Below are positions 41,765 through 56,501 of a stretch of 64,000 bases of DNA, piece by piece (within the stretch, counting starts at the first letter, position 1; each line of letters begins with the position of its first letter). The position numbers were made by a program, and so were the translations under genes. The stretch covers positions 124,001 through 188,000 of the forward strand of contig NZ_CBXV010000001.1 of the NCBI RefSeq assembly GCF_000820845.2. The letters run 5' to 3'. The notes under the pieces were generated by a model, which saw nothing but the letters and a program-made list of their open reading frames with translations, ran no database searches and had not been told where the DNA came from. Origin of the DNA: Pyrinomonas methylaliphatogenes (GTDB lineage Bacteria; Acidobacteriota; Blastocatellia; Pyrinomonadales; Pyrinomonadaceae).

Positions 41765-42856
41765 TCATGCGGCGATGCGGCGTAGATAACCGCTTTCGAC
41801 GGCGTAACGGCCGAGCCGCCGCAGGTAATCCGCATCCGTTACGGGAAGCGGCATCAACCGCGCCGCATTCGCCGTCTCGAACGACAATTGCAGATTGAAG
41901 TAAGGGAAACAAAAGGCCACCGATTCGAGCAGTTCGCGTTCGCGCGGCGGACACTCAGCGATCTCAAATTGGTCCGGCGGACACAGCCGTGGGCGGCTCG
42001 CGCCGGCGGGGAAGAACTCATCGCAAGCGAGCAGTTCTTCGACAGTAGGCGGCGTCGGCGATGTCAGGTGGAAAGTCCGACCGATGGCCCAGTCAGCTTC
42101 CATCGCCCGCAGCGTGGCTTCGACGACGAAATCGATCGGGGCGAGATGAACCCGCGCATCGGGTCGCGCCGGGAAGCGCGAAATCCACCCATTCGACATC
42201 AATCGCAGCAACGGATAGATGACGTTAAAATCGCGAGTCCATCCCGTGACGGTGTCGCCGACGACCATGCTCGGGCGCAAGATGGTGACCGGCAGGCCGA
42301 CGCCAATCGTCGCGCGCACGATTCGCTCCGCCTCGTATTTGCTCCACTCGTAATGGTTGAGATGGCATGGCGTCGGGGCCAAATGATCCTCTTTGACCAC
42401 GCCTCGCTTCCCGCTGCCGACGACGAAGACCGTGCTCAAATGGATGAACCTTCGCAGAATGCCTTCGCCGAGCGCGCGACCGGCGAAGACCAAAAGATTG
42501 GCCGTCCCGTTGACGTTGACCGATTCGCACAGCGCGCGATCGGCGGTCAGCGAAGTGACGGCGGCGGTGTGAATGATGATTTCGGTTGAAGCGATCAAAC
42601 GCGCTTCGACCGTCGGCTCCAAACCGAGTCCATCGAGCGTGAGGTCTCCGGCGACGACCTCCACGCGCGCGCGCTCCTCTGCCGTCAGACCGATTTCATC
42701 GAAGACGCGCGCCGCGCGTTCTTCCGCGGTCCGACGCGCGCGGGGGCGAATGATGATGGCGATCTTGTAATCGGTCCGACGCACAAGCGCGAGGAGGAGT
42801 TCGCGCCCGATCGTTCCCACGCCGGTCAGCAGAATCGCTCTCGTCCTATCGCGCAT
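41765..42856 (-). CDS. Extended SDR, fatty-acyl/thioester reductase-like
   Basis: 363 residues. The NAD(P)-binding motif is TGVGTIG at 11-17 and the catalytic Tyr-Lys pair is Y169/K173 in HYEWSKYEAERIV. The sequence around it (FIHLSTVFVVG, ILRPSMVVGDTVTGW, LAPIDFVVEATLRA) resembles male-sterility-type fatty-acyl reductases and carboxylic-acid-reductase terminal domains. I infer reduction of an acyl thioester to an aldehyde or alcohol, releasing the chain from the carrier protein. It could instead be a sugar epimerase-like SDR. It follows the ketosynthase gene by 6 bp. Confidence 0.82.
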   Translation of the reverse strand: MRDRTRAILLTGVGTIGRELLLALVRRTDYKIAIIIRPRARRTAEERAARVFDEIGLTAEERARVEVVAGDLTLDGLGLEPTVEARLIASTEIIIHTAAVTSLTADRALCESVNVNGTANLLVFAGRALGEGILRRFIHLSTVFVVGSGKRGVVKEDHLAPTPCHLNHYEWSKYEAERIVRATIGVGLPVTILRPSMVVGDTVTGWTRDFNVIYPLLRLMSNGWISRFPARPDARVHLAPIDFVVEATLRAMEADWAIGRTFHLTSPTPPTVEELLACDEFFPAGASRPRLCPPDQFEIAECPPRERELLESVAFCFPYFNLQLSFETANAARLMPLPVTDADYLRRLGRYAVESGYLRRIAA

Positions 42857-42862
42857 ATCTTT

Positions 42863-44161
42863 TCAGCTTCCATCCTTGCCGATGATGAGTGCGACGTTCT
42901 GTCCGCCGAAGCCGAATGAGTTCGACATCGCGAAGCGAAACTCATGGTGGCGCGCTCGATTCGGCACATAGTCAAGATCGCATTCCGGATCGGGCTCTTC
43001 GAGGTTGATCGTCGGCGGTAAGAGTTGAGCTTCGAGGGCGAGCACCGTGGCGATCAGTTCGACCGCTCCGGCAGCCGCGACCATGTGACCTGTCATGGAC
43101 TTGGTCGAACTGACCGGAATGTGCGGCGCCGCTTTCCCGAAGGCGCGGTGAAGCGCGAGCGTTTCCGTGCGATCATTCTCGAGCGTCGAGGTGCCGTGCG
43201 CATTCACATATCCGATCTCTTCAGGATCGAGGCCCGCATCTTGTAACGCAGCGTTGATGGCGGCAATGGGGCCGCGCGCTTCTGGATGCATGTCGGTGAT
43301 CCGGTAGGCGTCGCTCGATAGTCCGTAACCGAGAAGCTCCGCGCGGATGCGCGCGCCGCGTCGTCGCGCGTGTTCGCGTTCTTCGATGACGAGCGCGCCG
43401 GCTCCTTCGCTGAGCACGAAGCCGTCGCGGCGTAGGTCGAAAGGGCGCGAAGCGCGCGTCGGCTCTTCGTTTCGCGTGGAGAGCGCTGAAAGAGAGGCGA
43501 ATCCGATCACATCGAGCGGGGCTGTCATCGCGTGTGCGCCGCCGACCAGCGCGACGTCGCACTCGCCCGTTTGTATGCGGCGCATCCCTTCGCCGATGGC
43601 TTGCGCGCTCGCGGCGCAAGCCGTCAGACACGTAGTGACTTCGCCTTCGATCCCGAAGCGCGATGCGATCACAGAAGCGGGGATCGTCGCTTCCATCAAC
43701 TGATCGTGAAGGGCGAAGGATGGGTCGCGCGCTTCGCTGAGCAATCTTGCCGTATCGCAACCTTCCGATAGCGCGTAAGGGCTGAGCAATTGGGCCAGCC
43801 ATTCGAGATCATTGGGCCCTTCGCCGGAGCCGAAATAGAGGCAGGCTTCGGCCAGTTGCGACACCGTGAGCGCCGCTTCGCGCACGGCCAGTTCGGCGGC
43901 GGCGATCGCGTATTGCGTACGCAGATCGAACTTGAGGCGCGTTCCATCGGAAGTCAGATATTCGATTGGCGCCGGAGAGTAATCTTCGAGAGCGAAATCG
44001 GTGATCTCGCCAGCGATGCGCACGGGCAGACCCGAAGCATCGAAGCGGCTGATGGCGCGAATGCCCGAGCGGCCACTGATGAGCGATTGCCAGAAGGCCG
44101 TGCAGCCGTTGCCGATGGGCGAAATGACTCCCAGTCCGGTGATGACGACGCGCCGTTTCAT
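42863..44161 (-). CDS. Beta-ketoacyl-ACP synthase, complete active site (FabF-like)
   Basis: 432 residues of the KAS I/II thiolase fold. The nucleophile is C182 in TACAASAQAIGEG, with histidines H322 (NAHGTST) and H359 (KSMTGH) and lysine K354, so the condensing machinery is complete. It should extend acyl chains on the operon's carrier protein with malonyl units. It overlaps the preceding ketosynthase-like gene by four bases, the classical layout of a KS alpha/beta pair. I do not use fabF as symbol because this is probably not the housekeeping enzyme. Confidence 0.93.
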   Translation of the reverse strand: MKRRVVITGLGVISPIGNGCTAFWQSLISGRSGIRAISRFDASGLPVRIAGEITDFALEDYSPAPIEYLTSDGTRLKFDLRTQYAIAAAELAVREAALTVSQLAEACLYFGSGEGPNDLEWLAQLLSPYALSEGCDTARLLSEARDPSFALHDQLMEATIPASVIASRFGIEGEVTTCLTACAASAQAIGEGMRRIQTGECDVALVGGAHAMTAPLDVIGFASLSALSTRNEEPTRASRPFDLRRDGFVLSEGAGALVIEEREHARRRGARIRAELLGYGLSSDAYRITDMHPEARGPIAAINAALQDAGLDPEEIGYVNAHGTSTLENDRTETLALHRAFGKAAPHIPVSSTKSMTGHMVAAAGAVELIATVLALEAQLLPPTINLEEPDPECDLDYVPNRARHHEFRFAMSNSFGFGGQNVALIIGKDGS

Positions 44162-45462
44162 CGGTCCACCCTCCGCAAGATGAGCGCCGCGGCGTGGCCG
44201 CCAAAGCCATATCCTGCGATCAACACGTGATCGAGCCTTGCAGCGCGCGCCCCTTCGGTGACGAAAGCGAAATCGGCGATCGGTCGCTCGAGGTTGATCG
44301 TCGGCGGGAGTTGCCCGGCCTCAAGGGCTTTCACCGCGGCGATCAGATCAAAAGCTCCCGAAGCCGCGTGCGCATGTCCCAACAGAGAGCGCGTCGCCGT
44401 GACAAACGGTCGGCAGCGCGCGAAGACGGTCGACAGCGCGCAAGCCGTTGCGCGATCGAAATCGGGCACTGATATCGCCGGCGCGAAGATCGCATCTATT
44501 TCATCGGGCGCGAGTCCGCTCCGTCGCAGGCAGATCGTGATGGCGCGCGCCAGCGCCCGTCCTTCGGGCGAAGGATGGAGCGGATCGCCAGCCTCATTAG
44601 CGGCGCCGTATCCGATGATCGCGGCGCGAATGGGCGCGTTGCGCTGGCGCGCCGCTTCTTCATCTTCGAGAAGAAGCGCGCCCGCCCCTTCGCCGCAGAC
44701 GAACCCGGCAGCGTGTGCATCGAACGGGGCACTGACGGCGATGGGCGGCACGTCATCACGTGTAGCGAGCCAGCCTAGATCGCGATAGCGCAGAAGGGCC
44801 AACGGCGAGATGCGCGCGTCGGTCCCGCCGGCGAAAACCGCCGAAGCTTCGCCTCGCGCGATAAGGCGCCTCGCTTCACCGATGGCCGCGAGAGAGGCGA
44901 CGCAGCCGTTCATGATTGTGTTGGCTGGTCCTTGAAGATTGAGCGCGATTGAGGCGTGCGCGCTCGTCATGTTCGGGATATGGCGCAAAAGCCAGAGCGG
45001 GAAGAGTTGCGGGACGCCATATCTACTGAAGGCGGCGAGATCGAACCGCATCTTTTCGCCTCTTCGCTCTTGAGCGGTGGCAGCGAAAGCGCGTCCGAGA
45101 TCGGCGACATCGGCGTTGAGCATCCCGGTGCCGAGGACGACGCCCAATCGCGACGGTGGGTAAAAAGGTTCGCCGCCGATCAAGCGCGCCGTTCGGCCAG
45201 CTTCGCGTGCGGCGGCAAGGGCAAATTGCGCATGGCGCCCCATCAGCTTCAGTTTGCGCGGCGCTAGATCCAGCGCCTCGGGCGAGAATTCACGCGCTTC
45301 CGCGGCATAGTTTGGGCGGAAGTCGCCGGTAGGGAAGGCGCTGATCGGCGCGACGCCCGATCGCGCCTCAAGTAGCGATCGCCAGAGCGAATCGACATCG
45401 TTGCCCAATGCCGAGATCGCGCCGTATCCGGTGATCACGATCTGTCTATCTGTGGCTCGCAT
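44158..45462 (-). CDS. Ketosynthase-like partner subunit with degenerate active site
   Basis: 434 residues, clearly of the FabF fold (VITGYGAISALGNDV, FVCGEGAGALLLEDE, LPPTINLERP). C187 (NTIMNGCVAS) aligns with the nucleophile, but the HGT histidine position is P328 (IFAPAISVPDF) and the KSMTGH lysine position is R358 (RSLLGHAH); the second histidine H363 is kept. It is therefore unlikely to catalyse decarboxylative condensation itself. It probably pairs with the complete ketosynthase as a chain-length-factor-like subunit. In classical chain-length factors it is the Cys that is lost, so this pattern is different. Four-base overlap with the partner gene. Confidence 0.88.
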   Translation of the reverse strand: MRATDRQIVITGYGAISALGNDVDSLWRSLLEARSGVAPISAFPTGDFRPNYAAEAREFSPEALDLAPRKLKLMGRHAQFALAAAREAGRTARLIGGEPFYPPSRLGVVLGTGMLNADVADLGRAFAATAQERRGEKMRFDLAAFSRYGVPQLFPLWLLRHIPNMTSAHASIALNLQGPANTIMNGCVASLAAIGEARRLIARGEASAVFAGGTDARISPLALLRYRDLGWLATRDDVPPIAVSAPFDAHAAGFVCGEGAGALLLEDEEAARQRNAPIRAAIIGYGAANEAGDPLHPSPEGRALARAITICLRRSGLAPDEIDAIFAPAISVPDFDRATACALSTVFARCRPFVTATRSLLGHAHAASGAFDLIAAVKALEAGQLPPTINLERPIADFAFVTEGARAARLDHVLIAGYGFGGHAAALILRRVDR

Positions 45463-45486
45463 CGAAGTAACTGCCGATCTCGCTCC

Positions 45487-46260
45487 TCACTGAAAAGCGA
45501 ACGTTCGATCATCCAAACCGACGTTGACGCGCATATCTTTGAAGCGATGGCGCTCGATGAGCGCACCGGAAGCATCATAAAGTTCGATGGCGACCGGCAA
45601 TCTGAGCTTTTCGTCCACCCAAATGAAAGCGTGATGCGCGCCATCGAGATCGGGAGGGAGCGGCCCGGTCGCGGTCAAAGCGAATTTGTAAAGCGCGCGC
45701 CCATCGCCTCGATCCTCGCCCAAGTAATCCATCTTGATGTTGTGTCGTGACAGTTCTTGCGCGACGCGCTCGATGATGTATCCGATGCCGGCTTGCGTCA
45801 CCGGATGGCGCGAATCGGCGAGCGCGAGCGGATCGTTCGGATCGAGGCGCAGAGTGCCGAAGAGCGAACCGAGTGGACCAGTTCGACGCGCGAGCACTTT
45901 GCCACCATTCTCTCCTGCGCGATAGATGGCGGTTTGGTCAACGCGACCGCGATCGTTCAGCCAATCGCACCGCACGTCGAAAGGTTTGCGAAAATAGAAT
46001 CTGATCGTCTGCTTCTCGCCGTTGGAGATGGCGCGCTCCTGCTTCTCGTAGAGGCAGGTGTAGTCGCGCACGCTGGCGTAACTTTGCGCGATTTCGGCCC
46101 ACGAGATGGGCGCGCTTGAAGGCGACGATGTTTGTGGCGCCGGAGCTTCTCCTTCGAACGGCGCGCGCCGCCCGCAGCCGAAAGCGAGCGCACACAACGC
46201 CAGCATAAAGGATGTTCGCCATGCCGATATTGAACGCATCTTAACGGATTCGATCCTCAC
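45487..46260 (-). CDS. DUF1571/LolA-like lipoprotein
   Basis: Up to 257 residues. A signal peptide with lipobox LAFGC (C29 from the GTG start at 46260; an ATG at 46239 is also possible) marks it as a lipoprotein. The mature part has beta-strand sequences such as YTCLYEKQERAISNGEKQTIRFYFRKPFDVRCDWL and FIWVDEKLRLPVAIELYDASG, resembling DUF1571 and the LolA/LolB lipid-carrier fold. Lipid carriers of this type accompany aryl-polyene and similar clusters. I infer that it helps move the lipid product to the outer membrane. Confidence 0.8.
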   Translation of the reverse strand: MRIESVKMRSISAWRTSFMLALCALAFGCGRRAPFEGEAPAPQTSSPSSAPISWAEIAQSYASVRDYTCLYEKQERAISNGEKQTIRFYFRKPFDVRCDWLNDRGRVDQTAIYRAGENGGKVLARRTGPLGSLFGTLRLDPNDPLALADSRHPVTQAGIGYIIERVAQELSRHNIKMDYLGEDRGDGRALYKFALTATGPLPPDLDGAHHAFIWVDEKLRLPVAIELYDASGALIERHRFKDMRVNVGLDDRTFAFQ

Positions 46261-46264
46261 TCGA

Positions 46265-47026
46265 TCACTCGATCCAGCGCACGACGCGATCGAAGCGGAT
46301 GCGCCGCGGTGCGCTGATACGCGGATTAGCCGCGTAGCCTAAGGGGACGACCGCCACCAATTCCCAGGGAGGTTCGATCCCGAGCAGTTCGTGCAGTTGT
46401 CGTTTGGCGAAAAGCGGAGCGGTCATCCAACAAGTGGCCAGACCGAGCGCGTGCGCGGCTAATTGCAAGTTCTGAATAGCGGCGGCGACGCTTTGCATCG
46501 CAGGATTGGCCGCCTCTTCTTGGTTCTCCGGATAGGAGATCTGCGCGCGTTCGAGGAGACTGGCGATCACCTGTCCATACTCGCGGTAGAGGACGTTGAT
46601 GATGACGGGCGCGCGCCGAAAAAGCGTTGCATAGTTACGCAAGTATCCACTCACTTTGTCGGCGAATTGATCGCCAGCGAGAAGCGCGATGATCGTTTCG
46701 ATTTCGCGGCTGACGCGCGCGACCATCTCCATCTTGACCTCTTCATTGGTCACCACGACGAAGCGCCACGGTTGCTTGTTCATTCCCGAAGGCGCGTAAG
46801 TCGCCGCCTCGATCGCGCGCAAGATGAGTTCGCGCGGCGGCGCATCGGGCGCAAACTGCCGCACGCTACGCCTTCCGGCCAGCAGCGCGAGGAACGGTTC
46901 GGCTGCTTCGAGCGCCTCCGCGACCGTCGGGCGCGCGACGGTTCCTCCATCGAGACGCAAGTCGCTTGGCACGTCTTCGGCTTCGAGCAACTCTTTAAGC
47001 TCGACTGGTGAACGCTCAACGCTCAT
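46265..47026 (-). CDS. Nitroreductase-family flavoprotein
   Basis: 253 residues. FMN-binding family features: LLAGRRSVRQFAPDAPP, AIEAATYAPSGMNKQPWRFVVV and LAAHALGLATCWMTAP. An N-terminal extension of about 45 residues precedes the core. Family members reduce or desaturate with FMN and NAD(P)H; in biosynthetic clusters they can oxidise rings or reduce enoyl bonds. Since no enoyl-ACP reductase is in the operon, a redox step on the carrier-bound chain is possible. Four-base overlap with the ACP gene. Confidence 0.88.
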   Translation of the reverse strand: MSVERSPVELKELLEAEDVPSDLRLDGGTVARPTVAEALEAAEPFLALLAGRRSVRQFAPDAPPRELILRAIEAATYAPSGMNKQPWRFVVVTNEEVKMEMVARVSREIETIIALLAGDQFADKVSGYLRNYATLFRRAPVIINVLYREYGQVIASLLERAQISYPENQEEAANPAMQSVAAAIQNLQLAAHALGLATCWMTAPLFAKRQLHELLGIEPPWELVAVVPLGYAANPRISAPRRIRFDRVVRWIE

Positions 47027-47427
47027 ACGGTCGCAGATGAAGCGAGACGCAGTTTGCTCTCGACGTAATCAACTATCGTTCGCACGGTCAACAGATCGTT
47101 CACGAGTTCTTCAACGTTCTGCCCGACGGTGAGTTGCGATAGATCGGTGAAATTAAAGCGATCCCGAAGCGCCGCTACACCGGCTTCCGTCAACTTTCCG
47201 CCCTGGACCAGTTGCGGATCGCGTAACATCTCTTGCGGGAAGAGTTCGCCGCGAGCGACCTCGATCCCGAAGGTCTTCTCCAGACGGAAAATGATGTCGA
47301 GAAAATCTATCGATTCGGCTTCGAGATCGCCGACGAGGGAAGTCTCCGGTTTGATTTCAGCTCGGCTGACGCCGAGCGCCTGAACGAGTACATCGGCGAC
47401 CTTTTCATGAATCTCTTCGCGCGTCAT
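47023..47427 (-). CDS. Acyl carrier protein, extended form
   Basis: 134 residues, longer than the usual 75-90. The phosphopantetheine site is S39 in GDLEAESIDFLDIIFRLEKTFGI; the usual DSL is ESI here. About 45 residues (70-115) are inserted between the helix after the serine and the terminal helix (TVRTIVDYVESKL). The inserted region (GKLTEAGVAALRDRF) looks helical. It carries the growing chain for the operon's ketosynthases and dehydratases. It overlaps both neighbours by four bases. Confidence 0.9.
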   Translation of the reverse strand: MTREEIHEKVADVLVQALGVSRAEIKPETSLVGDLEAESIDFLDIIFRLEKTFGIEVARGELFPQEMLRDPQLVQGGKLTEAGVAALRDRFNFTDLSQLTVGQNVEELVNDLLTVRTIVDYVESKLRLASSATV

Positions 47428-47861
47428 CGTTGCACCTCGATTGACCGATTTGAATCTCCTCTCCGCTGCACGCCCTCGCTCGCCGCATCTCGCAAACGAA
47501 ACCGAGCGCGCATGCAGCGTTCGTTTGCGACCATACCTTGAGCTTCGAAGTCAGCCGCGCCGTCGCTCAACCCTTTCAAGATCACGCGCGCGATGAAGGT
47601 CTCTCCCGGCTCGACGCGGCGCGTGATGCGTAACTGCTCGATCCGTTCGAGGTAAGATGAGAAAGCTCGTTCTCCTTCGTGGCATAAAGCGCGCCACAGA
47701 GCCGATGCCGCTTGCGCCGCCGCTTCGAGCATCAGCGCACCGGGAAGCGTTGGCCAAGCGGGGAAATGATCGGCCAAGTAATCGGCTTCGCCGCTGACGT
47801 GCAGGCGCGCTTCAGCCATCCACTTGGCCGGATCTACTGAGATCTCATCGGCCCATTTCAT
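47424..47861 (-). CDS. 3-hydroxyacyl-ACP dehydratase (first), operon's first gene
   Basis: 145 residues, hot-dog fold. Catalytic H32 and E46 are in DHFPAWPTLPGALMLEAAAQAA, a clear FabZ/FabA-type signature. It dehydrates 3-hydroxyacyl-ACP to enoyl-ACP. Being the first gene after a non-coding region, it marks the 5' end of the minus-strand operon running down to about 29 kb. The ribosome binding site is weak (GAAG before ATG). Confidence 0.9.
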   Translation of the reverse strand: MKWADEISVDPAKWMAEARLHVSGEADYLADHFPAWPTLPGALMLEAAAQAASALWRALCHEGERAFSSYLERIEQLRITRRVEPGETFIARVILKGLSDGAADFEAQGMVANERCMRARFRLRDAASEGVQRRGDSNRSIEVQR

Positions 47862-48049
47862 CTTCAGATCGAGCGTTTGGTAGATAGCAAACGTCGCGCC
47901 ACGCGCTGTGAGGGCGAGGATCAGATCGTCATTGGGCCGTCATTCCGCTTGAGTGGCGGAGCAGGCCCGCGAGAGGTCGAAGCATCGTTGTGTGGCTTTT
48001 TGTCCCGTCGTGTGGCCGCCTGGGACATGCGGGCTAAAATGAAAAAAGT

Positions 48050-48078
48050 TTAATCCAATCTTCATCCTTTCTTCATGC
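48050..48078 (+). promoter_or_regulatory. Triple direct repeat, probable response-regulator operator
   Basis: Heptamers TTAATCC (48050), TTCATCC (48061) and TTCATGC (48072) start exactly 11 bp apart, one helical turn, the arrangement bound by tandem OmpR/PhoB-type regulators. A -10-like TATCTT starts at 48088, 9 bp after the third heptamer, which would overlap the -35 position. The same layout occurs before the efflux genes at 50560. Confidence 0.6.
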
Positions 48079-48087
48079 GTTTCGGGG

Positions 48088-48093
48088 TATCTT
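48088..48093 (+). promoter_or_regulatory. Candidate -10 hexamer of the response-regulator operon
   Basis: TATCTT placed 16 bp downstream of the first base of the third operator repeat, with no good -35. This is as expected for a class II activator-dependent promoter. Confidence 0.4.
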
Positions 48094-48099
48094 CCTTCG

Positions 48100-48317
48100 C
48101 GTCAGGTGTTGCTGGTTCTCAACGGCGCTTCAGCCGAAGCGAGCGAGAGGTGCGCAGCACACAGGTCTCGCATGAATCACGTGAGGTGCCATGGCTGTTA
48201 GGGGCAAGTCATGTGGCTGAACGTGATCGAACCAAGCGGTCGCAGAGGATGATCGCACCTTTGGGGGCACGGATGGGCACGACCTTTGCTTTACCGTTCG
48301 TGCCCCATTTTTTATTT
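48100..48317 (+). ncRNA. Structured 5' leader / possible riboswitch or attenuator
   Basis: If transcription starts just after 48093, the leader is about 230 nt. By eye it has a hairpin with CGCTTC/GAAGCG (48126-48131, 48136-48141), one with GCGAGA/TCTCGC (48143-48148, 48166-48171) and one with ATCACGT/ACGTGAT (48176-48182, 48221-48227). A crossing pair AGGTGC/GCACCT (48184-48189, 48255-48260) could form a pseudoknot. It ends in an intrinsic terminator. It matches no riboswitch class I can recognise. Confidence 0.4.
48275..48317 (+). terminator. Intrinsic terminator/attenuator before the response-regulator gene
   Basis: GGGCACGA (48275-48282) pairs with TCGTGCCC (48298-48305), followed directly by CATTTTTTATTT. 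The start codon is only 17 nt further on, so this acts on the leader and not on a separate gene. A second copy, GGGGCACG at 48264-48271, could pair with the same right arm, which offers an alternative fold. Confidence 0.65.
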
Positions 48318-48334
48318 CGTTCGGTCAGGATGCG

Positions 48335-49009
48335 ATGCGCATTCTCGTGGTAGAAGACGAGCCGAAGGTGGCGAGCTTCATCAAGCGCGGATTGGAGCAG
48401 GCGCAGAACGTCGTTGACATCGCGTCAACGGCTGCCGAGGCCGATTATCTCGTCTCCGTTCAGGATTACGACTTGTTGATCCTCGATTGCATGTTGCCCG
48501 ACGAAGATGGGCGTAAGCTCTGCCGTCGTTTGCGCGCGCGCGGCGTCGATCTTCCGGTCCTGATTTTGACGGCGAAGGATTCGACTGCCGACAAAGTGCT
48601 TGGGCTCGATAGCGGCGCGGACGACTATTTAACCAAGCCCTTCGATTTTACGGAGCTTCTGGCGCGCGTGCGCGCGCTCGGGCGGCGGCGCGGGCGCCCG
48701 CTTTTGCAGCCGATCGCGATAGCCGATCTGACGATCGATCCCGTCACGCGGCGCGTCACGCGCGGCGGCCAGGTCATCGCGCTGACCCCCAAAGAGTACG
48801 CGCTGCTCGAACTGCTGGCGCGGCGCGTCGGGCAGGTAGTCACCCGCGCCGAGATCATCGAACAGGTTTGGGACATGCATTTCGATCCGACGAGCAACAT
48901 CGTCGATGTGATGATCAAGATGTTGCGTGACAAGATAGATCGTCGGTTCGAACCGAAGCTCATTCAAACTGTGCGCGGCGCCGGATACATGATCGAAGAT
49001 CCGAGTTAA
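48335..49009 (+). CDS. OmpR-family response regulator (CusR/CopR-like)
   Basis: 224 residues. The receiver domain has the acidic pair in VVEDEP, phospho-acceptor D51 (LILDCMLPDEDG) and the LTAKD lysine. The C-terminal winged helix (about 125-222; LTPKEYALLELLARRVGQVVTRAEIIEQVW) is of the OmpR type. It is followed after 18 bp by its kinase and then by a metal efflux system, so metal-responsive activation is inferred. The start ATG follows TCAGGATGCG. The triple-repeat operator upstream suggests autoregulation. Confidence 0.94.
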   Translation: MRILVVEDEPKVASFIKRGLEQAQNVVDIASTAAEADYLVSVQDYDLLILDCMLPDEDGRKLCRRLRARGVDLPVLILTAKDSTADKVLGLDSGADDYLTKPFDFTELLARVRALGRRRGRPLLQPIAIADLTIDPVTRRVTRGGQVIALTPKEYALLELLARRVGQVVTRAEIIEQVWDMHFDPTSNIVDVMIKMLRDKIDRRFEPKLIQTVRGAGYMIEDPS

Positions 49010-49027
49010 ACGGGCGTCCGAGAGGTT

Positions 49028-50581
49028 ATGCCGCTCTCTTTCCGCTCTCGTTTGACGGCTTGGTACATCGCCGTGCTCGCCACGTTGCTGGCGGGTGCCG
49101 CAACGCTCATCATCCTCATCTTGCAAGGCATGGCCGAGCGACGGCTCGACGCCACGCTTTGGGTGTTAGGTGCGACTGAAGCGGAAGGCGTCGTTGCGCG
49201 GTTGCGTGACCGTGGTTTGCGCGCTCCCGATGATGCGACGGTCAGCGACATAGATTACCGCATGCTTCCCGGTTACGGCGCTTTTCGTATCCAGAAGTAT
49301 GTCACGGTTGTCAATCGCGAAGGCCGCATCGTCGATTTCTCGATCAACCTGCCGAAGCCTCTGCCGATCAGCGATGAGTTGGTGCGACGGGCGATGCGCG
49401 GCGAGATCGGCTATCAGACGGCGGATGTCCCTGACGTTGGGCGTTTGCGCATGATCTATATCCCTGTCTTGCGCCCGCAGTTCGAGCCGTTCGTCGTCAT
49501 CGTCGCCGTCCCGACCGAATTCGTCGGGGCCGAAATAGGTACGCTCTCGCGTCGAATCGCGGCGATCATCATCGCCGTGCTCGTCTTGGCTGGAGTGAGC
49601 GGCTTGCTTCTGGCGCGGCGGGCGCTGCGTCCGATTAGCGAGATCTCGCTTGCCGTGCAGCGCCTCACCGAACGCAATTTACATGAGCGGCTGCCTGAAC
49701 CGAGGACCGGCGACGAGATAGACGAACTGGTCAAGGTGTTCAATCAACTGCTCGCGCGCCTCGATCATGCTTTCGATGCGCAACGTCGCTTCACTGCCGA
49801 TGCTTCCCATGAACTTTGCACCCCTCTTACCGTCTTGAAGGGCGAGACGGAAGTTGCTCTGCTCGAACGGCGCACGCCGGAAGAATATGAGGCTCTCCTG
49901 CGGAGCAACCTCGAAGAGATCGAGCGCCTCTCGCGGTTGGCGGCCAACTTGCTGTTGCTCGCTCGTTCTGATGCCGGAGAGCAGCAGATCGTCAAAGATC
50001 TGATTGTTCTCAACGACCTGATCGCCGAGGCGTGTGCGCGCCTTTCGCCGCTCGCCAAAGAACGCGAGATCGAAGTTTACGTCAACGCCCCGCAGCTTAT
50101 CCTGCTCGAAGGAGATCGTCTCGCGCTCGAACATGTGATCATGAACCTGCTGAGCAATGCGCTGCGCTATACGCCGCGCGGCGGGCAGGTTTCGATCGAG
50201 GCGGCTTTGACGGCGGATGGTTTTGCGCGGCTCGACGTATGCGATACGGGGATCGGCATCCCCCCTGAAGCTCTGCCGCATATCTTCGAAAGGTTCTACC
50301 GCGCCGACAACGCGCGCGCCCGCGAACCTCAGGGCTCCGGATTGGGACTGGCGATCTGCCAAGCGATCGCTAAAGCCCACGGCGGGAGGATCGAGGTCGA
50401 AAGCGAGTTAGGTAAGGGGTCGCGTTTCACGCTCTTCATCCCACTGGCACCGGCTCTTCACTCAGCGCAAACCCATGAGGGGAAGGGATGCGCTTCGGTG
50501 TGTGCGGCGCAAGAGGAACGGATCGCTGAATCGCCGGCGCGCCGATGGATGAAAGTTTTTTCATCTCTTCTTCATCTTTGA
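49028..50581 (+). CDS. Sensor histidine kinase, heavy-metal type
   Basis: 517 residues. Membrane segments at about 10-33 and 175-197 enclose a periplasmic sensor of about 140 residues. A HAMP linker (198-255) follows. The phospho-histidine is H261 in DASHELCTPLTVL, where the usual HELRTPL Arg is Cys. The ATP domain has NLLSNALRYTPRGG, DTGIGIP and GSGLGLAICQAIAKAHGG. It should detect periplasmic metal and phosphorylate the adjacent regulator. The last 40 residues after the kinase domain are non-conserved, and the triple-repeat operator of the next operon overlaps the 3' end of the gene. Confidence 0.93.
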   Translation: MPLSFRSRLTAWYIAVLATLLAGAATLIILILQGMAERRLDATLWVLGATEAEGVVARLRDRGLRAPDDATVSDIDYRMLPGYGAFRIQKYVTVVNREGRIVDFSINLPKPLPISDELVRRAMRGEIGYQTADVPDVGRLRMIYIPVLRPQFEPFVVIVAVPTEFVGAEIGTLSRRIAAIIIAVLVLAGVSGLLLARRALRPISEISLAVQRLTERNLHERLPEPRTGDEIDELVKVFNQLLARLDHAFDAQRRFTADASHELCTPLTVLKGETEVALLERRTPEEYEALLRSNLEEIERLSRLAANLLLLARSDAGEQQIVKDLIVLNDLIAEACARLSPLAKEREIEVYVNAPQLILLEGDRLALEHVIMNLLSNALRYTPRGGQVSIEAALTADGFARLDVCDTGIGIPPEALPHIFERFYRADNARAREPQGSGLGLAICQAIAKAHGGRIEVESELGKGSRFTLFIPLAPALHSAQTHEGKGCASVCAAQEERIAESPARRWMKVFSSLLHL

Positions 50582-50588
50582 CTCATCT
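50560..50588 (+). promoter_or_regulatory. Triple direct repeat, operator of the efflux operon
   Basis: Heptamers TTCATCT (50560), TTCATCT (50571) and CTCATCT (50582) start 11 bp apart. They match in phase and sequence the repeats at 48050-48078. A -10-like TAAACT begins at 50598, again 16 bp after the start of the third repeat. Confidence 0.65.
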
Positions 50589-50597
50589 TCAGCCGGT

Positions 50598-50603
50598 TAA
50601 ACT
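50598..50603 (+). promoter_or_regulatory. Candidate -10 hexamer of the efflux operon
   Basis: TAAACT at the same distance from the third operator repeat as TATCTT in the regulator promoter, about 60 bp upstream of the channel gene. Confidence 0.4.
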
Positions 50604-50656
50604 GAAAAACTTAACTGAGCGGCATTAGCGCGAAGCTTGGATTTTCGGGGCAGCGT

Positions 50657-52033
50657 GTGGGTCAGAAGATGCGTTCTGCGAGCGGAAAGGGAGAGTTTGC
50701 GTCTCGGGACGCCAGGTTCTGCTTTTGCGTGTTGATGGTTCTCTTCCTTGAGATGGGGGCTGCCGCGCAGTCAGTGCCGACGAAATTATCGCTTGCGGCG
50801 GCGACCGATCTGTTGATGAAAAGGAATCTGGCCGTACTGGCGGCGCGATATAACGTCGATGCCGTGCGCGCGCAACGCATCGCGGCTGGGTTGCGCCCCA
50901 ACCCGACGCTCAGCGTCAGCGCGACGCAATTGACCATCCCGCGCCTATTCGCGAATCCATCGCTCGCTCTCAGGACGGGCGATAACGTCGCGGCGAATTC
51001 GACCTATACGGTCGAAGTGGACCAGTTGATTGAGCGGGGGAATAAACGCGGATTGCGCGTCGCACAAGCCGAACTGAATGTCCGGGTCGCCGAAGCGCAA
51101 CTAAGAGATGCTTTGCGTCAACAACTTTTCCAACTTCGGCAAGCTTTCTTTAGCGCCGTCCTCGCGCGCGAGAATCTGCGCGTCGCGCGTGAGAACCTCG
51201 CGCACTTCGAGCGGACGGAGCAGATCCTACAGGCGCAGTACAGGGAAGGGTACACGGCGGGCGTTGATCTGCGGAGAATCGAGATTCAGAAATTTGAGTT
51301 GGAGCATGAAGCGGCGACCGCTGAACAGGGCTATCAACAAGCTGTGCGCGATGTTCTGAACCTGATCGGCGTCGGAGATGCGCCATCGAATGCTAGCGTG
51401 CAATTGACCGGCGGGCAGTCGGCGAACGATGCGGATTTGCAGATCATTGATGGAGATCTCGATGTCATCCCGGTGCTTCTGTGGATAGACGATCTTCGCC
51501 AGATGGCGCTCGCCAACCGGCCCGATGTACAAGCGGCGCGTCTTGCCGTCGATGCCGCCAAGATCGGGGTGCAATTGGCCGCCGCCCAGCGCGTGCGCGA
51601 TGTGACGATCGGAGGGCAATATGCGCGCAACGGGAGCGATAACACCGTCGGCATAGTTTTGAGCGTCCCGCTAAAGGTTGGTCCGCGTGCGCAAGCGGCC
51701 ATCGAACAAGCGACGGCACTCGAACTGCAGGCGGAAGCGCAGTTGAGGCAAGCTGAAACGCAAGCTCTGACCGATGTTGAAAAGGCTTTCATCGCCTACC
51801 GCACGAGCCGCGATCGTTTGCGCGCTTTCAGCAGCGATGTTCTGCGTGCTGCCGAAGATGTCCGGCGGACGGAAGAGATAGCTTATCGCGAAGGTGCGAA
51901 GGGCTTGCTCGATTTCCTCGACGCGCAACGCGCCTACAATCAGGTTCGCCTCGATTACAACCAAGCGCGCTACGATTTCCTGATGAGCCTCTATCAACTC
52001 GAGTATGCGACCGGAACTTCGATCGTGAAGTAG
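50657..52033 (+). CDS. TolC/CzcC-family outer-membrane efflux channel
   Basis: 458 residues from a GTG at 50657 (ATG at 50669 also possible). A signal peptide (CVLMVLFLEMGAAAQS) is followed by two repeats of the outer-membrane efflux domain, rich in coiled coil (RVAEAQLRDALRQQLFQLRQAFFSAVLARENLRVARENL; KGLLDFLDAQRAYNQVRLDYNQARYDFLMSLYQLEYATG). It forms the trimeric outer-membrane duct of the RND pump encoded downstream, 15 bp before the adaptor. Confidence 0.92.
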   Translation: MGQKMRSASGKGEFASRDARFCFCVLMVLFLEMGAAAQSVPTKLSLAAATDLLMKRNLAVLAARYNVDAVRAQRIAAGLRPNPTLSVSATQLTIPRLFANPSLALRTGDNVAANSTYTVEVDQLIERGNKRGLRVAQAELNVRVAEAQLRDALRQQLFQLRQAFFSAVLARENLRVARENLAHFERTEQILQAQYREGYTAGVDLRRIEIQKFELEHEAATAEQGYQQAVRDVLNLIGVGDAPSNASVQLTGGQSANDADLQIIDGDLDVIPVLLWIDDLRQMALANRPDVQAARLAVDAAKIGVQLAAAQRVRDVTIGGQYARNGSDNTVGIVLSVPLKVGPRAQAAIEQATALELQAEAQLRQAETQALTDVEKAFIAYRTSRDRLRAFSSDVLRAAEDVRRTEEIAYREGAKGLLDFLDAQRAYNQVRLDYNQARYDFLMSLYQLEYATGTSIVK

Positions 52034-52048
52034 AAGATTCGGCGAGGT

Positions 52049-53368
52049 ATGGATATGAGCCAAGGCGTGATCGAACCGGAAGTGGAACGCGAGGCCCCCT
52101 TCGATCAGGAGGAGCGGCGGGACATCGCAGATACAGGGCGAAAGCGGGCGAGAAAACGCCGTGCGATGAAGTTGATAGGATCGCTGGCGCTCTTTTTGCT
52201 GTTACTCGCGATCACATGGTCGGTGTTGCACCGGCGACCGGCGGCCAGGGAGCGAGCGACAGAGAAGGTCGAGGTGGGGCCGGCTTCAACGGTCAAACTC
52301 GCGCCGGCCCAACTGGCAAACGTCGCGACGGAGATCGTCTTGCGGCGGAGCATGTCACAAGAGATCACCACGCCGGGCAAAGTCGCCATCCGGCGGATGA
52401 CGCCGGTCTTCTCGCAATTTTCCGGTCGCCTCGTTCAACTGAGGGCTGAGATCGGCGATCACGTGCGAGTTGGGCGAGTGCTTGGCGTGATCGACTCGCC
52501 CGACATCATCGGGCTGGAATCCGATTATCAACAGGCGTTCGCTTCGCTTTCGACGGCGCGCACTTCGTTCGATCTGGCGCGCCGGACTAGGGAACGGGCC
52601 GAGCGGCTTGCGAACGTCGATGCCATTCCGAAGCGCGAACTGCAGCAAGCGCAAGCTGACGAAGCGCGCGCCGCGGACGATTTAAGGCGCGCGCAGGCGG
52701 CGCTCATCGCTGCGCGCGAACGGTTGCGGAACGCTGGCGTAAGCGAGGCGGAGATCGAGCGTCTCGAATCAGGAGCGCGCGCGGTGTCGCGGCTCGTCCC
52801 GCTCGTCGCTCCGATCAACGGAGTCATCATCGAAAGGCACGTCGGACTGGGCCAGATGGTTCAATCAAACGGCGGCGATCCGCTCTTCATGATCGCCGAT
52901 CTATCGTCCGTTTGGGTCAACGCCGATATCTATGAGGATCAGCTAACCTACGTGCGCGTCGGGTCTCCGCTCAAGATCAAAGCCGCGGCCTATCCGGATC
53001 GCATCTTCAACGCGCGCGTCGATCAAATCGGTAGCGTCGTGGACCCCGAAAAGCACACGATCCCGCTCCGCTGCGTCGTCGCTAATCCGGGCGAGTTGTT
53101 GAAGCCGGGGATGTTCGTGACGGTCATCCTGCGCACGGCGACGTTGGAGGACGTTCTGACTGTGCCGAACACAGCGATCGTGACAGAGGGCGAGCGCCAC
53201 ATCGTCTTCGTCGAGACTTCGCCCGGCGAATTCGTCAGACGCGAAGTTCAAGTGGGCGAGGAACGAGAAGGGAGAGTGATCATCAGATCCGGTTTGCGCG
53301 AAGGGGAGCGCGTCGTCACCAACGGCAGCTTGCTGCTCGATGCCGAAAGGCGAATGGAGGGGAGTTGA
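52049..53368 (+). CDS. Periplasmic adaptor of metal RND efflux (CzcB/CusB-like)
   Basis: 439 residues. A cytoplasmic tail of about 30 residues and one membrane anchor (LIGSLALFLLLLAITWSVLH) come first. A barrel-sandwich domain (FSGRLVQLRAEIGDHVRVGRVLGVIDSPDI), a long alpha-hairpin (about 150-235), a beta-barrel (YEDQLTYVRVGSPLKIKAAAYPDR) and a membrane-proximal domain follow. The adaptor bridges pump and channel. A second ATG at 52055 has better spacing to GAGG and may be the true start. I see no Met- or His-rich metal-binding N-terminus. Confidence 0.92.
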   Translation: MDMSQGVIEPEVEREAPFDQEERRDIADTGRKRARKRRAMKLIGSLALFLLLLAITWSVLHRRPAARERATEKVEVGPASTVKLAPAQLANVATEIVLRRSMSQEITTPGKVAIRRMTPVFSQFSGRLVQLRAEIGDHVRVGRVLGVIDSPDIIGLESDYQQAFASLSTARTSFDLARRTRERAERLANVDAIPKRELQQAQADEARAADDLRRAQAALIAARERLRNAGVSEAEIERLESGARAVSRLVPLVAPINGVIIERHVGLGQMVQSNGGDPLFMIADLSSVWVNADIYEDQLTYVRVGSPLKIKAAAYPDRIFNARVDQIGSVVDPEKHTIPLRCVVANPGELLKPGMFVTVILRTATLEDVLTVPNTAIVTEGERHIVFVETSPGEFVRREVQVGEEREGRVIIRSGLREGERVVTNGSLLLDAERRMEGS

Positions 53369-53426: not shown

Positions 53427-56400
53427 GTGATCGCACAGCGGATAGTCGCCTTTGCTCTTCGGCAGAAGTTCCTGATCGTCGCCTTAAGCTTCTTGATCGC
53501 GCTCGGTGGCGCGCTCGCTTTCCGCGCTCTGCCGGTGGAAGCTTTCCCGGACGTCATCGACACGCAGGTGCAGATCATTACGCAGTGGCCCGGACACGCC
53601 GCTGAAGAGGTCGAAAAACAGATCACCTTCCCGATAGAGACCGAGGTCAATGGCACTCCACGGCTGGCCGTTCTGCGTTCGATTTCGCTCTTCGGTCTTT
53701 CGATCGTCACCGCGACCTTCGAAGATGGAACGGATGACTATTTTGCGCGCGCGCAGATCGTCGAGCGTTTGCAGAATGTGACTTTGCCCGAAGGCGTCCA
53801 AGCGCAATTGGGGCCGCTCGCGAGCGCTACCGGCGAGATCTATCGTTATACGATTCAGGCGCCGCCCGACATGCCGCTCATCGAAGTCAAGGCGTTGCAG
53901 GATTGGACGCTTGAACGCGCCTATCGGTCCGTCCCCGGAGTCGCCGACGTGGTCAGTTTCGGGGGCGGGACGAAACAGTTCCAGGTGCTCGTCGATCCGG
54001 CAAAGCTACGTCGCTTCGGATTGACGCTCGGGCAAGTCTTTGCCGCCGTCAAAAACGGCAACGGCAATGCGGGTGGGAATTTCATCCAACACGGGGCCGA
54101 AGAGTACGTCGTGCGCGGTATCGGATTGATCCGCGACGAAGATGATATCCGCAACATCGTCATTACGGCGCGCGACGGCACGCCGATCAGGGTTGGACAG
54201 ATCGCCGAAGTGCGCGTCGATGCTGGCGTGCGGCGCGGCATCGTCGGTCGAGACGACAAGCCCGATGTCGTCGAGGGGATCGTGTTGCTGCGTCGCGGCG
54301 AAAACGCGCTCGAAACCCTGAAGCGCGTGGAGGCCAAGACCGAAGAGTTGAATGCCTCTCTGCCCGCCGGCGTGCGCATCGTGCCGCATTACGATCGCAC
54401 GGAATTGATCAACCGCACAGTCCATACCGTCGAACGCAATTTGATCGAAGGGGCGCTGCTCGTCGTGTTGGTCCTCTTCATCTTCCTCTTCGACGTGCGC
54501 GCCGCTTTGGTCGTTGCCGTCGTCATCCCGTTCGCGTTGCTCGTGGCCTTTGGCCTCTGCTACCTGTTCGGCATCCCCGCTAATTTGATCAGTTTGGGGG
54601 CCATAGATTTCGGCATCATCGTCGATGGCGCGGTCGTCATGGTCGAGGCGATCTTCGGGAAACTGGTCCATGAACCGAGCGATGAGCGAAGTATAGATGA
54701 ACGCATCACCGAGGCGGCGGGCGAAGTTGGCATCCCCATCCTCTTCTCGCAACTGATCATCATCCTCGCGCTCATCCCCATCTTCACCTTGCAGCGCGTT
54801 GAAGGGAAGCTCTTTCGCCCGCTCGCCTTCACGATCTCGTTCGCGATGTGTGGAGCGCTCCTCTGCTCGCTCACGCTGATCCCCGTGCTTTGCTCGCTCG
54901 TCTTACGTCGGACGCAGGAGAGGGCCAATCCTTTGATGCGCATCGCGCAGCGGATTTACGCGCCGGTGCTCCGCTACTCGCTCCTGAATCGGGCGGCGAC
55001 GTTTGCAGTCATCATCAGCGCTGTGCTGATCGGCGCGATCGTCTTCTCGCAATTGGGAACCGATTTCTTGCCCAAACTTGACGAAGGGGCGATTTGGGTG
55101 CGCGCTACCATGCCGAATTCGATAAGCCTGGCGGCGGCGGCTGAATTGACGCCGAAGATGCGGCAGATATTGCGTTCCTTCCCAGAGGTGAAGACGACCG
55201 TCACACAACTCGGACGTCCCGACGATGGAACCGATCCGGCGGGCGTCAACAATGCCGAAACCTTTGTCGACTTGCGCCCGAAAGATGAGTGGCGGCCAGG
55301 CATGACGAAGGAGAAGCTGATCGCCGAGATGGAGGCGAAGCTGAAGACCATCCCCGGCGTCATCTACGATTTCTCGCAACCGATCACAGATAACGTGGAT
55401 GAAGCGGTTTCGGGAGTCAAAGGGGCGCCCAACTCGATCAAGATCTTCGGCGATGATCTTGGCGAACTGCAGCGACTTGCCAACGAAATCAAAGCCGCCA
55501 TCGCCGACGTTCCAGGTATTGCGCAGCTTTCAGCCGATCAACTCGCCGGACAGGCGCAATTGCAGATCGAGATCGATCGCGCACGCGCCGCGCGTTACGG
55601 ATTAAACGTCTCTGACGTTCAAGATGTCGTCGAGACGGCCATCGGCGGCAAGGTTGCTTCCCAAGTCGTGCAAGGCGAACGCCGCTTCGATCTGGTCGTT
55701 CGTTTGATACCGGAGGCGCGAATCGACGTCGAGAGCATCGGCAGCATATCGGTTGCAACGCCCGACGGACAACAGGTGCCTTTGCGCGATATCGCTAATC
55801 TCGTCGTCAAGCAGGGGTATACGTACATCAATCGCGAGGCGAATCAAAGGCGCACCGTGGTCCGCTTCGACGTGCGCGGGCGTGATTTGGGAAGCGCGAT
55901 CGCCGATGCGCAGCGCGCCGTTCGCGAGAAGGTGCGCATCCCGCCCGGTTATAGGATAATCTGGTCCGGTCAGTTCGAAAATCAGCAGCGGGCTGTCGCC
56001 AGATTGAAGGTGATCTTGCCGGTCACGGTCTTGATGATCTTCATGGTGCTTTACGCTGCCTTCAACTCCGTTGAAGATGCGCTCATCATCTTGCTCTGCG
56101 TCCCGTTTGGCGCTGTGGGCGGAGTGCTTGCGCTCGAGTTGACCGGGCAGACGCTCTCGGTTTCAGCGATCATCGGCTTCATCGCGCTCTTTGGGTTCTC
56201 TGTCCTGATCGGGATGTTGCTCGTATCAGCTTTCAACCATAAAAGGCGCAGAGCCTTCAATCTGCGCGAGGCGGTGATGGCTGGCGCGCGCCAGCAATTG
56301 CGCCCAGTGTTGATGACGGCGAGTTTAGCGATGCTCGGATTGCTTCCGGCAGCCGTTTCGACCGAACCGGGCTCCGAAGTGCAGAAACCGCTCGCGATCG

Positions 56401-56501
56401 TGATCATCGGCGGTTTGTGCACGGCGACCGTCTTGACATTGATCGCTATGCCGCTCATCTATGAATTGGTCAAGCGACCGCGTAGAACGCAGAGTCGATA
56501 A
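53427..56501 (+). CDS. Heavy-metal efflux RND pump (CzcA/CusA family)
   Basis: 1024 residues, twelve membrane segments and two large periplasmic loops. The HME-class proton-relay motif is DFGIIVDGAVVMVE in TM4. N-terminal features such as FRALPVEAFPDV and VEKQITFPIETEVNGTPRL are typical of CzcA/CusA/CnrA. It drives out divalent (Co/Zn/Cd/Ni) or monovalent (Cu/Ag) cations with protons. The DFGxxxDGxxxxxE form is the one seen in divalent-metal pumps, so Co/Zn/Cd/Ni is more likely; this is inference from family motifs. Confidence 0.95.
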   Translation: MIAQRIVAFALRQKFLIVALSFLIALGGALAFRALPVEAFPDVIDTQVQIITQWPGHAAEEVEKQITFPIETEVNGTPRLAVLRSISLFGLSIVTATFEDGTDDYFARAQIVERLQNVTLPEGVQAQLGPLASATGEIYRYTIQAPPDMPLIEVKALQDWTLERAYRSVPGVADVVSFGGGTKQFQVLVDPAKLRRFGLTLGQVFAAVKNGNGNAGGNFIQHGAEEYVVRGIGLIRDEDDIRNIVITARDGTPIRVGQIAEVRVDAGVRRGIVGRDDKPDVVEGIVLLRRGENALETLKRVEAKTEELNASLPAGVRIVPHYDRTELINRTVHTVERNLIEGALLVVLVLFIFLFDVRAALVVAVVIPFALLVAFGLCYLFGIPANLISLGAIDFGIIVDGAVVMVEAIFGKLVHEPSDERSIDERITEAAGEVGIPILFSQLIIILALIPIFTLQRVEGKLFRPLAFTISFAMCGALLCSLTLIPVLCSLVLRRTQERANPLMRIAQRIYAPVLRYSLLNRAATFAVIISAVLIGAIVFSQLGTDFLPKLDEGAIWVRATMPNSISLAAAAELTPKMRQILRSFPEVKTTVTQLGRPDDGTDPAGVNNAETFVDLRPKDEWRPGMTKEKLIAEMEAKLKTIPGVIYDFSQPITDNVDEAVSGVKGAPNSIKIFGDDLGELQRLANEIKAAIADVPGIAQLSADQLAGQAQLQIEIDRARAARYGLNVSDVQDVVETAIGGKVASQVVQGERRFDLVVRLIPEARIDVESIGSISVATPDGQQVPLRDIANLVVKQGYTYINREANQRRTVVRFDVRGRDLGSAIADAQRAVREKVRIPPGYRIIWSGQFENQQRAVARLKVILPVTVLMIFMVLYAAFNSVEDALIILLCVPFGAVGGVLALELTGQTLSVSAIIGFIALFGFSVLIGMLLVSAFNHKRRRAFNLREAVMAGARQQLRPVLMTASLAMLGLLPAAVSTEPGSEVQKPLAIVIIGGLCTATVLTLIAMPLIYELVKRPRRTQSR

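Follow-up and report, generated by a model that had tools for sequence, protein, structure and literature searches.

Direct-repeat boxes with an 11-bp period are familiar from OmpR/PhoB-type regulators, and the pho box and the boxes of PmrA and HssR are examples. For heavy-metal-type regulators of the OmpR family, a useful point of reference is AgrR of Cupriavidus metallidurans, which has been characterised by footprints and mutants. According to the available part of that report (PMC7380067), the 6-4-6 inverted repeat of the AgrR box matters and so do its in-phase direct half-sites, and AgrR activates its own gene as well as others from promoters whose -35 elements are poor. The same text describes CzcR, which activates czcCBA and represses oprD, and names the CopR, PcoR and CusR boxes of Proteobacteria.

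Here, we describe a 64,000-nucleotide stretch of DNA (the window) from Pyrinomonas methylaliphatogenes, of the acidobacterial class Blastocatellia, in which a metal-type two-component system and an adjacent efflux operon are each preceded by an array of phased repeats. Like the AgrR box, as far as the available part of PMC7380067 describes it, each array combines a 6-4-6 inverted repeat with in-phase direct half-sites beside a heavy-metal-type OmpR-family regulator; the related regulators and the 16-bp inverted geometry are likewise shared with the CopR/PcoR/CusR boxes named there. Compared with the AgrR/CopR/CusR-type consensus ATKACANNNNTGTMAT taken from that text, each of the two sites (ATGAAA/TTTMAT) departs at the two conserved C/G positions, and neither lies within one mismatch of it. 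The centre of the inverted repeat also falls at about -53.5 from the estimated start, versus -43.5 for AgrR in the same source, that is, one turn further up, with two direct half-sites below. A literature search of open-licence papers found none on this box and little regulatory work on this bacterial class; the finding offers a concrete, testable candidate binding code for metal-type two-component systems.

Genes and repeat arrays of the locus

The features of the locus, in window coordinates, are as follows.

48039..48054, + strand: promoter 1, imperfect 6-4-6 inverted repeat ATGAAA-AAAG-TTTAAT (inverted half-site plus repeat 1), one mismatch
48050..48078, + strand: promoter 1, direct half-sites TTAATCC (48050), TTCATCC (48061) and TTCATGC (48072), period 11
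48088..48093, + strand: promoter 1, -10-like TATCTT, 16 bp from the start of repeat 3
48264..48316, + strand: terminator-like hairpin with T-rich tail in the regulator leader, fold -26.4 kcal/mol, z -2.75
48335..49009, + strand: OmpR-family response regulator, CusR/CzcR-like, best NCBIfam match TIGR01387
49028..50581, + strand: sensor histidine kinase, best NCBIfam match TIGR01386, its 3' end containing part of promoter 2
50549..50564, + strand: promoter 2, perfect 6-4-6 inverted repeat ATGAAA-GTTT-TTTCAT, by direct reading
50560..50588, + strand: promoter 2, direct half-sites TTCATCT (50560), TTCATCT (50571) and CTCATCT (50582), period 11
50598..50603, + strand: promoter 2, -10-like TAAACT, 16 bp from the start of repeat 3
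50657..52033, + strand: outer-membrane efflux protein (Pfam OEP)
52049..53368, + strand: periplasmic adaptor (membrane-fusion) protein, CusB/CzcB-like by family and domain matches
53427..56501, + strand: RND pump, CusA/CzcA heavy-metal family (TIGR00914)

The regulator is a member of the OmpR/PhoB family, with a receiver domain and a C-terminal winged helix (Response_reg, 96.4 bits; Trans_reg_C, 93.8 bits; both above cut-off). Its top match is the heavy-metal response regulator subfamily TIGR01387, at 253.9 bits and below the cut-off of 279.2; that of the kinase is the heavy-metal sensor kinase subfamily TIGR01386, at 285.4 bits and below the cut-off of 292.55. The pump passes the TIGR00914 cut-off (1055 bits vs 701.45) and is a CusA/CzcA heavy-metal RND pump.

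An earlier, sequence-only reading of this DNA had described three direct repeats at each promoter, followed by a -10-like hexamer 16 bp past the start of the third. Direct reading agrees to the base: the repeats and their coordinates are exact, the period is exactly 11 at both promoters, and a TAnnnT hexamer stands at that distance in both. That reading had overlooked an inverted half-site, ATGAA at 48039 and 50549, exactly 11 bp 5' of repeat 1 at both promoters. Two 6-bp half-sites, inverted and with a 4-bp spacer (the AgrR/CopR/CusR-type palindrome geometry), are present at both promoters. The sequence-only count of three sites per promoter holds for the direct repeats here, but the core found across the class has two, and these promoters carry four, the outermost inverted. 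The class-wide two-repeat box (TTHATC-N5-TTHATC with TAnnnT at +16, a definition made in the present analysis) occurs at both promoters with one mismatch each; repeat 1 and the inverted half-site lie outside this core.

As in the OmpR/PhoB-type direct-repeat boxes, the tandem half-sites stand one helical turn apart and end about 10 bp before the -10. Unlike in those boxes, the half-site is TTyATCTT, in a CusR/CzcR-like clade, and an inverted half-site is added at these two promoters. At promoter 2, repeats 1 and 2 lie inside the last kinase codons (stop 50579-50581), beyond the recognised domains of the protein; the HATPase match stops at residue 474 out of 517.

Proposed regulation of the two promoters

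We think it quite probable that one OmpR-family, metal-type regulator activates both its own operon and the adjacent efflux operon through these phased half-sites. The metal-type sensor kinase would activate the regulator encoded at 48335, presumably by phosphorylation in response to a metal signal. The regulator would then bind half-sites one helical turn apart: first the inverted pair ATGAAA-N4-TTTMAT and then, downstream and in phase, two direct half-sites. These two would occupy the place of the -35, the last seven-base repeat ending 9 bp before the TAnnnT -10, and RNA polymerase would be recruited (class II activation) at the regulator's own operon and at the efflux operon. By analogy with AgrR, as described in the available part of PMC7380067, all four half-sites would be occupied at both promoters.

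What we infer is that this regulator binds and is phosphorylated, that it activates and does not repress, and that the signal is a metal. Activation is suggested by the position of the sites and by the lack of a sigma-70-like hexamer pair; a scan for such promoter pairs in 47400-51000 found 0 (shuffles mean 0.8). The view that one OmpR-type regulator probably serves both promoters, already put forward in the sequence-only reading, is well supported by comparison: the core with its -10 at +16 recurs before regulator genes and after kinase genes, 11 bp is the sole favoured period, and the box types cluster on the regulator tree. The locus is most likely a switch of a known kind, in a little-studied bacterial group whose relatives appear to share the core layout.

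Other boxes in the same genome must be weighed here. The refined core with its -10, at no more than one mismatch, has five matches in the genome versus 0 for the reversed control, and two of these are the promoters. Another (G000:C1:301267-301299, - strand; L260:11268-11300) is a TTAATC/TTTATC box with a -10 at +16, placed between a paralogous kinase and its efflux genes; the paralogous regulator (C1:303085-303738) is about 54-55% identical to that of the window. The sites might on these grounds serve the paralogous regulator too, or instead, with two metal systems sharing or cross-regulating their boxes. We consider this unlikely: the paralog's box is of the two-repeat type and lacks the inverted half-site, the paralog has a different recognition helix, there is no box 5' of the paralog's own gene (best 9/15), and the genes adjoining the sites are those of the window's own system. 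A further match (G000:C3:183627-183659, - strand; L259:7628-7660) is a two-repeat box with one mismatch, 48 bp 5' of a CzcA-like RND gene (49% identical) on another contig. It is a possible distant regulon member; no regulator match was found within the 14 kb fetched around it. The fifth place showed no match to the window's proteins.

Less probable still is that the regulator binds both sets of sites but represses at one of them, for example at its own promoter. Regulators of the OmpR family can do both, as the available part of PMC7380067 records for CzcR, but the geometry to the -10 is identical at both promoters and in relatives, and the interval scanned above holds no sigma-70-like pair able to work unaided.

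Uniqueness in the genome and recurrence in the class

Within the window, TTCAT-N6-TTCAT-N6-TTCAT at no more than two mismatches has two matches, which are the two promoters (shuffles mean 0.05; 0 of 100 with two). In the 3.79-Mb genome, only these two promoters match at no more than one mismatch; at no more than two there are three matches, and the reversed-pattern control gives 0. A four-element pattern, composed after both sites had been seen, likewise matches only the two promoters in the window (shuffles mean 0.00).

The motif-free similarity of the two upstream regions is modest. The best ungapped 40-base match between them falls in the repeat register, with 26/40 identical bases at 48037/50547, and 5 of 300 shuffled pairs do as well; for a 60-base motif-free comparison, 14 of 300 are equally good. 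When each region is taken alone and the period is left free between 7 and 24, the triplet of region 1 is equalled in 13 of 200 shuffles, and tied by a 13-bp triplet at 48225, and that of region 2 in 1 of 200. The case for the repeats being real lies in their genome-wide uniqueness and in the relatives, not in the motif-free tests.

In 32 of 60 genomes, a protein search with the regulator found matches at E no higher than 1e-60. The 49 class regulator loci examined are 48 from this search plus L075, which was fetched for its motif. A perfect TTHAT pair at 11 bp lies no more than 200 bp 5' of the regulator start in 11 of the 49 loci and is absent there in 38; as controls, none of the eight remaining periods between 7 and 15 yields more than 1, with 2 loci on the reverse strand at 11 bp, 0 in coding stretches and a mean of 0.2 in shuffles. 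Fifteen upstream-of-regulator sites have at least 9/10 matches and were picked irrespective of the -10: 12 of them have TAnnnT at +16 and 2 have it at +15, while the remaining one lacks it. After the kinase gene, the perfect pair is found in 14 of 37 loci (absent in 23), with TAnnnT at +16 in 13 of the 14, or in 13 of 36 with 13/13 when the motif-fetched L075 is left out. Here, other periods give 0-2, the reverse strand at 11 bp gives 0 and shuffles a mean of 0.10. These after-kinase counts come from a scan without a -10 bonus, which replaced a first scan that rewarded the -10.

At both positions, then, 11 bp is the only favoured period in class relatives. Six loci (L080, L091, L092, L095, L096, and L118) have a perfect pair after the kinase together with a perfect or 9/10 pair 5' of the regulator. 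The two-promoter plan thus recurs, albeit in loci that are related to one another and not independent. A chance similarity in T/C-rich DNA, for which the modest plain likeness of the two regions (equalled by 5 to 14 of 300 shuffles) and the any-period result for region 1 would speak, is extremely improbable and can be dismissed on the genome-wide counts and the relatives: the pattern is near-unique in the genome and period-specific, and its spacing to the -10 is fixed in relatives at both positions.

The strict core with its -10 occurs at 35 places in 162 class genomes versus 4 for the reversed pattern (counted by eye). Of the 30 class loci fetched around it, 15 lack any match to the six proteins of the window inside roughly 1.5 kb, and a close regulator lay beside the triple-pattern place in 3 of the 15 loci fetched around that pattern. 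Such places are often away from the genes of this system, so use of the half-site extends beyond this system. A profile built from 29 of 53 unique sites (the ones with a regulator, kinase, or efflux match next to them; 24 others were set aside) reads TTyATCTTnCR twice; all were selected with the core pattern, and only columns outside it count. The third repeat is not conserved: the unit 5' of the core carries little information in the 29 sites, and three repeats were discarded as a class-wide rule.

In 2.25 Mb of fetched loci, leaving aside the window's two sites, the four-element array scores 19-20/20 at 7 distinct places versus 0 for a control with element 1 reversed, and 17-18/20 at 31 versus 27; duplicate places were merged in the array count but left in the control count, and the triple pattern was the reason why many of the loci had been fetched.

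Some individual places in the fetched loci were also noted. The only other 20/20 four-element match there is in a same-genus genome (L064:3898-3935, - strand); it has no -10 at +16 and lies about 100 bp 5' of a TatA/B-like frame followed by a TatC-like frame (by eye), in a genome with no regulator match reaching E 1e-60. At L264:5157-5863 (- strand), the box is about 670 bp 5' of the regulator, with a gene-like frame (by eye) between them. L077:4875-7684 holds three TTCAT/TTCAT/TTCAG arrays, of which two are divergent; the arrays that were scored have CTGAA 11 bp to their 5' side, and the surroundings gave no match to the window's proteins.

The best 80 named relatives of the regulator present the reverse picture. 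A 6-4-6 palindrome within one mismatch of ATKACANNNNTGTMAT stands 5' of the regulator in 24 of 79 (control 1; the raw count was 25 before L218 was removed as a partial-match artefact), and a direct-repeat box with a -10 in 0 of 80. Among class relatives, the palindrome is found in 0 of 49 and the direct-repeat box with a -10 in 9 of 49.

Box types cluster on the regulator tree. It was built from 72 chosen regulators, omitting named relatives without the palindrome and all beyond L189, and its groups were labelled by hand, with L116 counted as four-element although its match was weaker. The 22 palindrome rows make up one side of a branch, the 4 four-element rows do likewise, and all 20 direct-repeat rows belong to a single set of 28 (100/97). 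This set is joined by the window regulator on a long branch (95/87); the placement of that regulator is unsure, and it does not lie beside the four-element clade, whose boxes most resemble its own. Recognition helices differ between the box-type groups. Taken together, the locus and its relatives suggest that half-sites are arranged differently among related regulators, as a palindrome, as direct repeats, or as both.

A hairpin in the regulator leader

Between the promoter 1 -10 and the start codon of the regulator lies the hairpin at 48264-48316, unnoticed in the sequence-only reading and one of three places in the window, with both strands scanned, that fold at or below -20 kcal/mol. A simple terminator scan did not report it and listed two others versus 4.2 expected in shuffles; as background, 10 of 200 random 245-nt stretches of the window have a hairpin with a T-rich tail at or below -15 kcal/mol. 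The window has no match to a known RNA family at gathering score, and two matches near the leader are at chance level (E 1.1 and 3.8). No hairpin of this kind was found directly after promoter 2. In 396 genomes of the phylum, a search with the leader DNA found only the window's own copy, and the searches brought up no nearer relative carrying this gene pair.

Among loci with leaders longer than 100 nt (the window, L090, L068, and L264), three of four have a hairpin with a T-rich tail between the box and the regulator; none of five loci with 50-63 nt leaders has one. The contrast is no more than suggestive. Since the gene upstream of the leader sits on the opposite strand, the simplest source of a + strand transcript running into the hairpin would be promoter 1, whose start site we estimate from sequence to lie near 48100. 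Transcription from promoter 1 may produce an attenuated leader, or a terminated RNA some 215 nt long. A stronger version is that it chiefly makes this RNA (roughly 48100-48316), as a metal-induced small RNA or attenuator leader, with the regulator and kinase expressed only by read-through; we hold this to be possible and on balance doubtful. If true, the feedback loop would have a built-in brake, with the efflux operon fully induced. The leader hairpin, if it does terminate, would be an extra layer of control on an autoregulated system.

A nine-codon frame, MNHVRCHGC, at the end of the ORF at 48106-48201 was considered as a metal-sensing leader peptide and set aside, as short frames arise by chance. 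The divergent neighbour of the locus (window 41765-47861, - strand) is a gene cluster whose frames, by eye, are ketosynthase-, acyl carrier protein-, and dehydratase-like.
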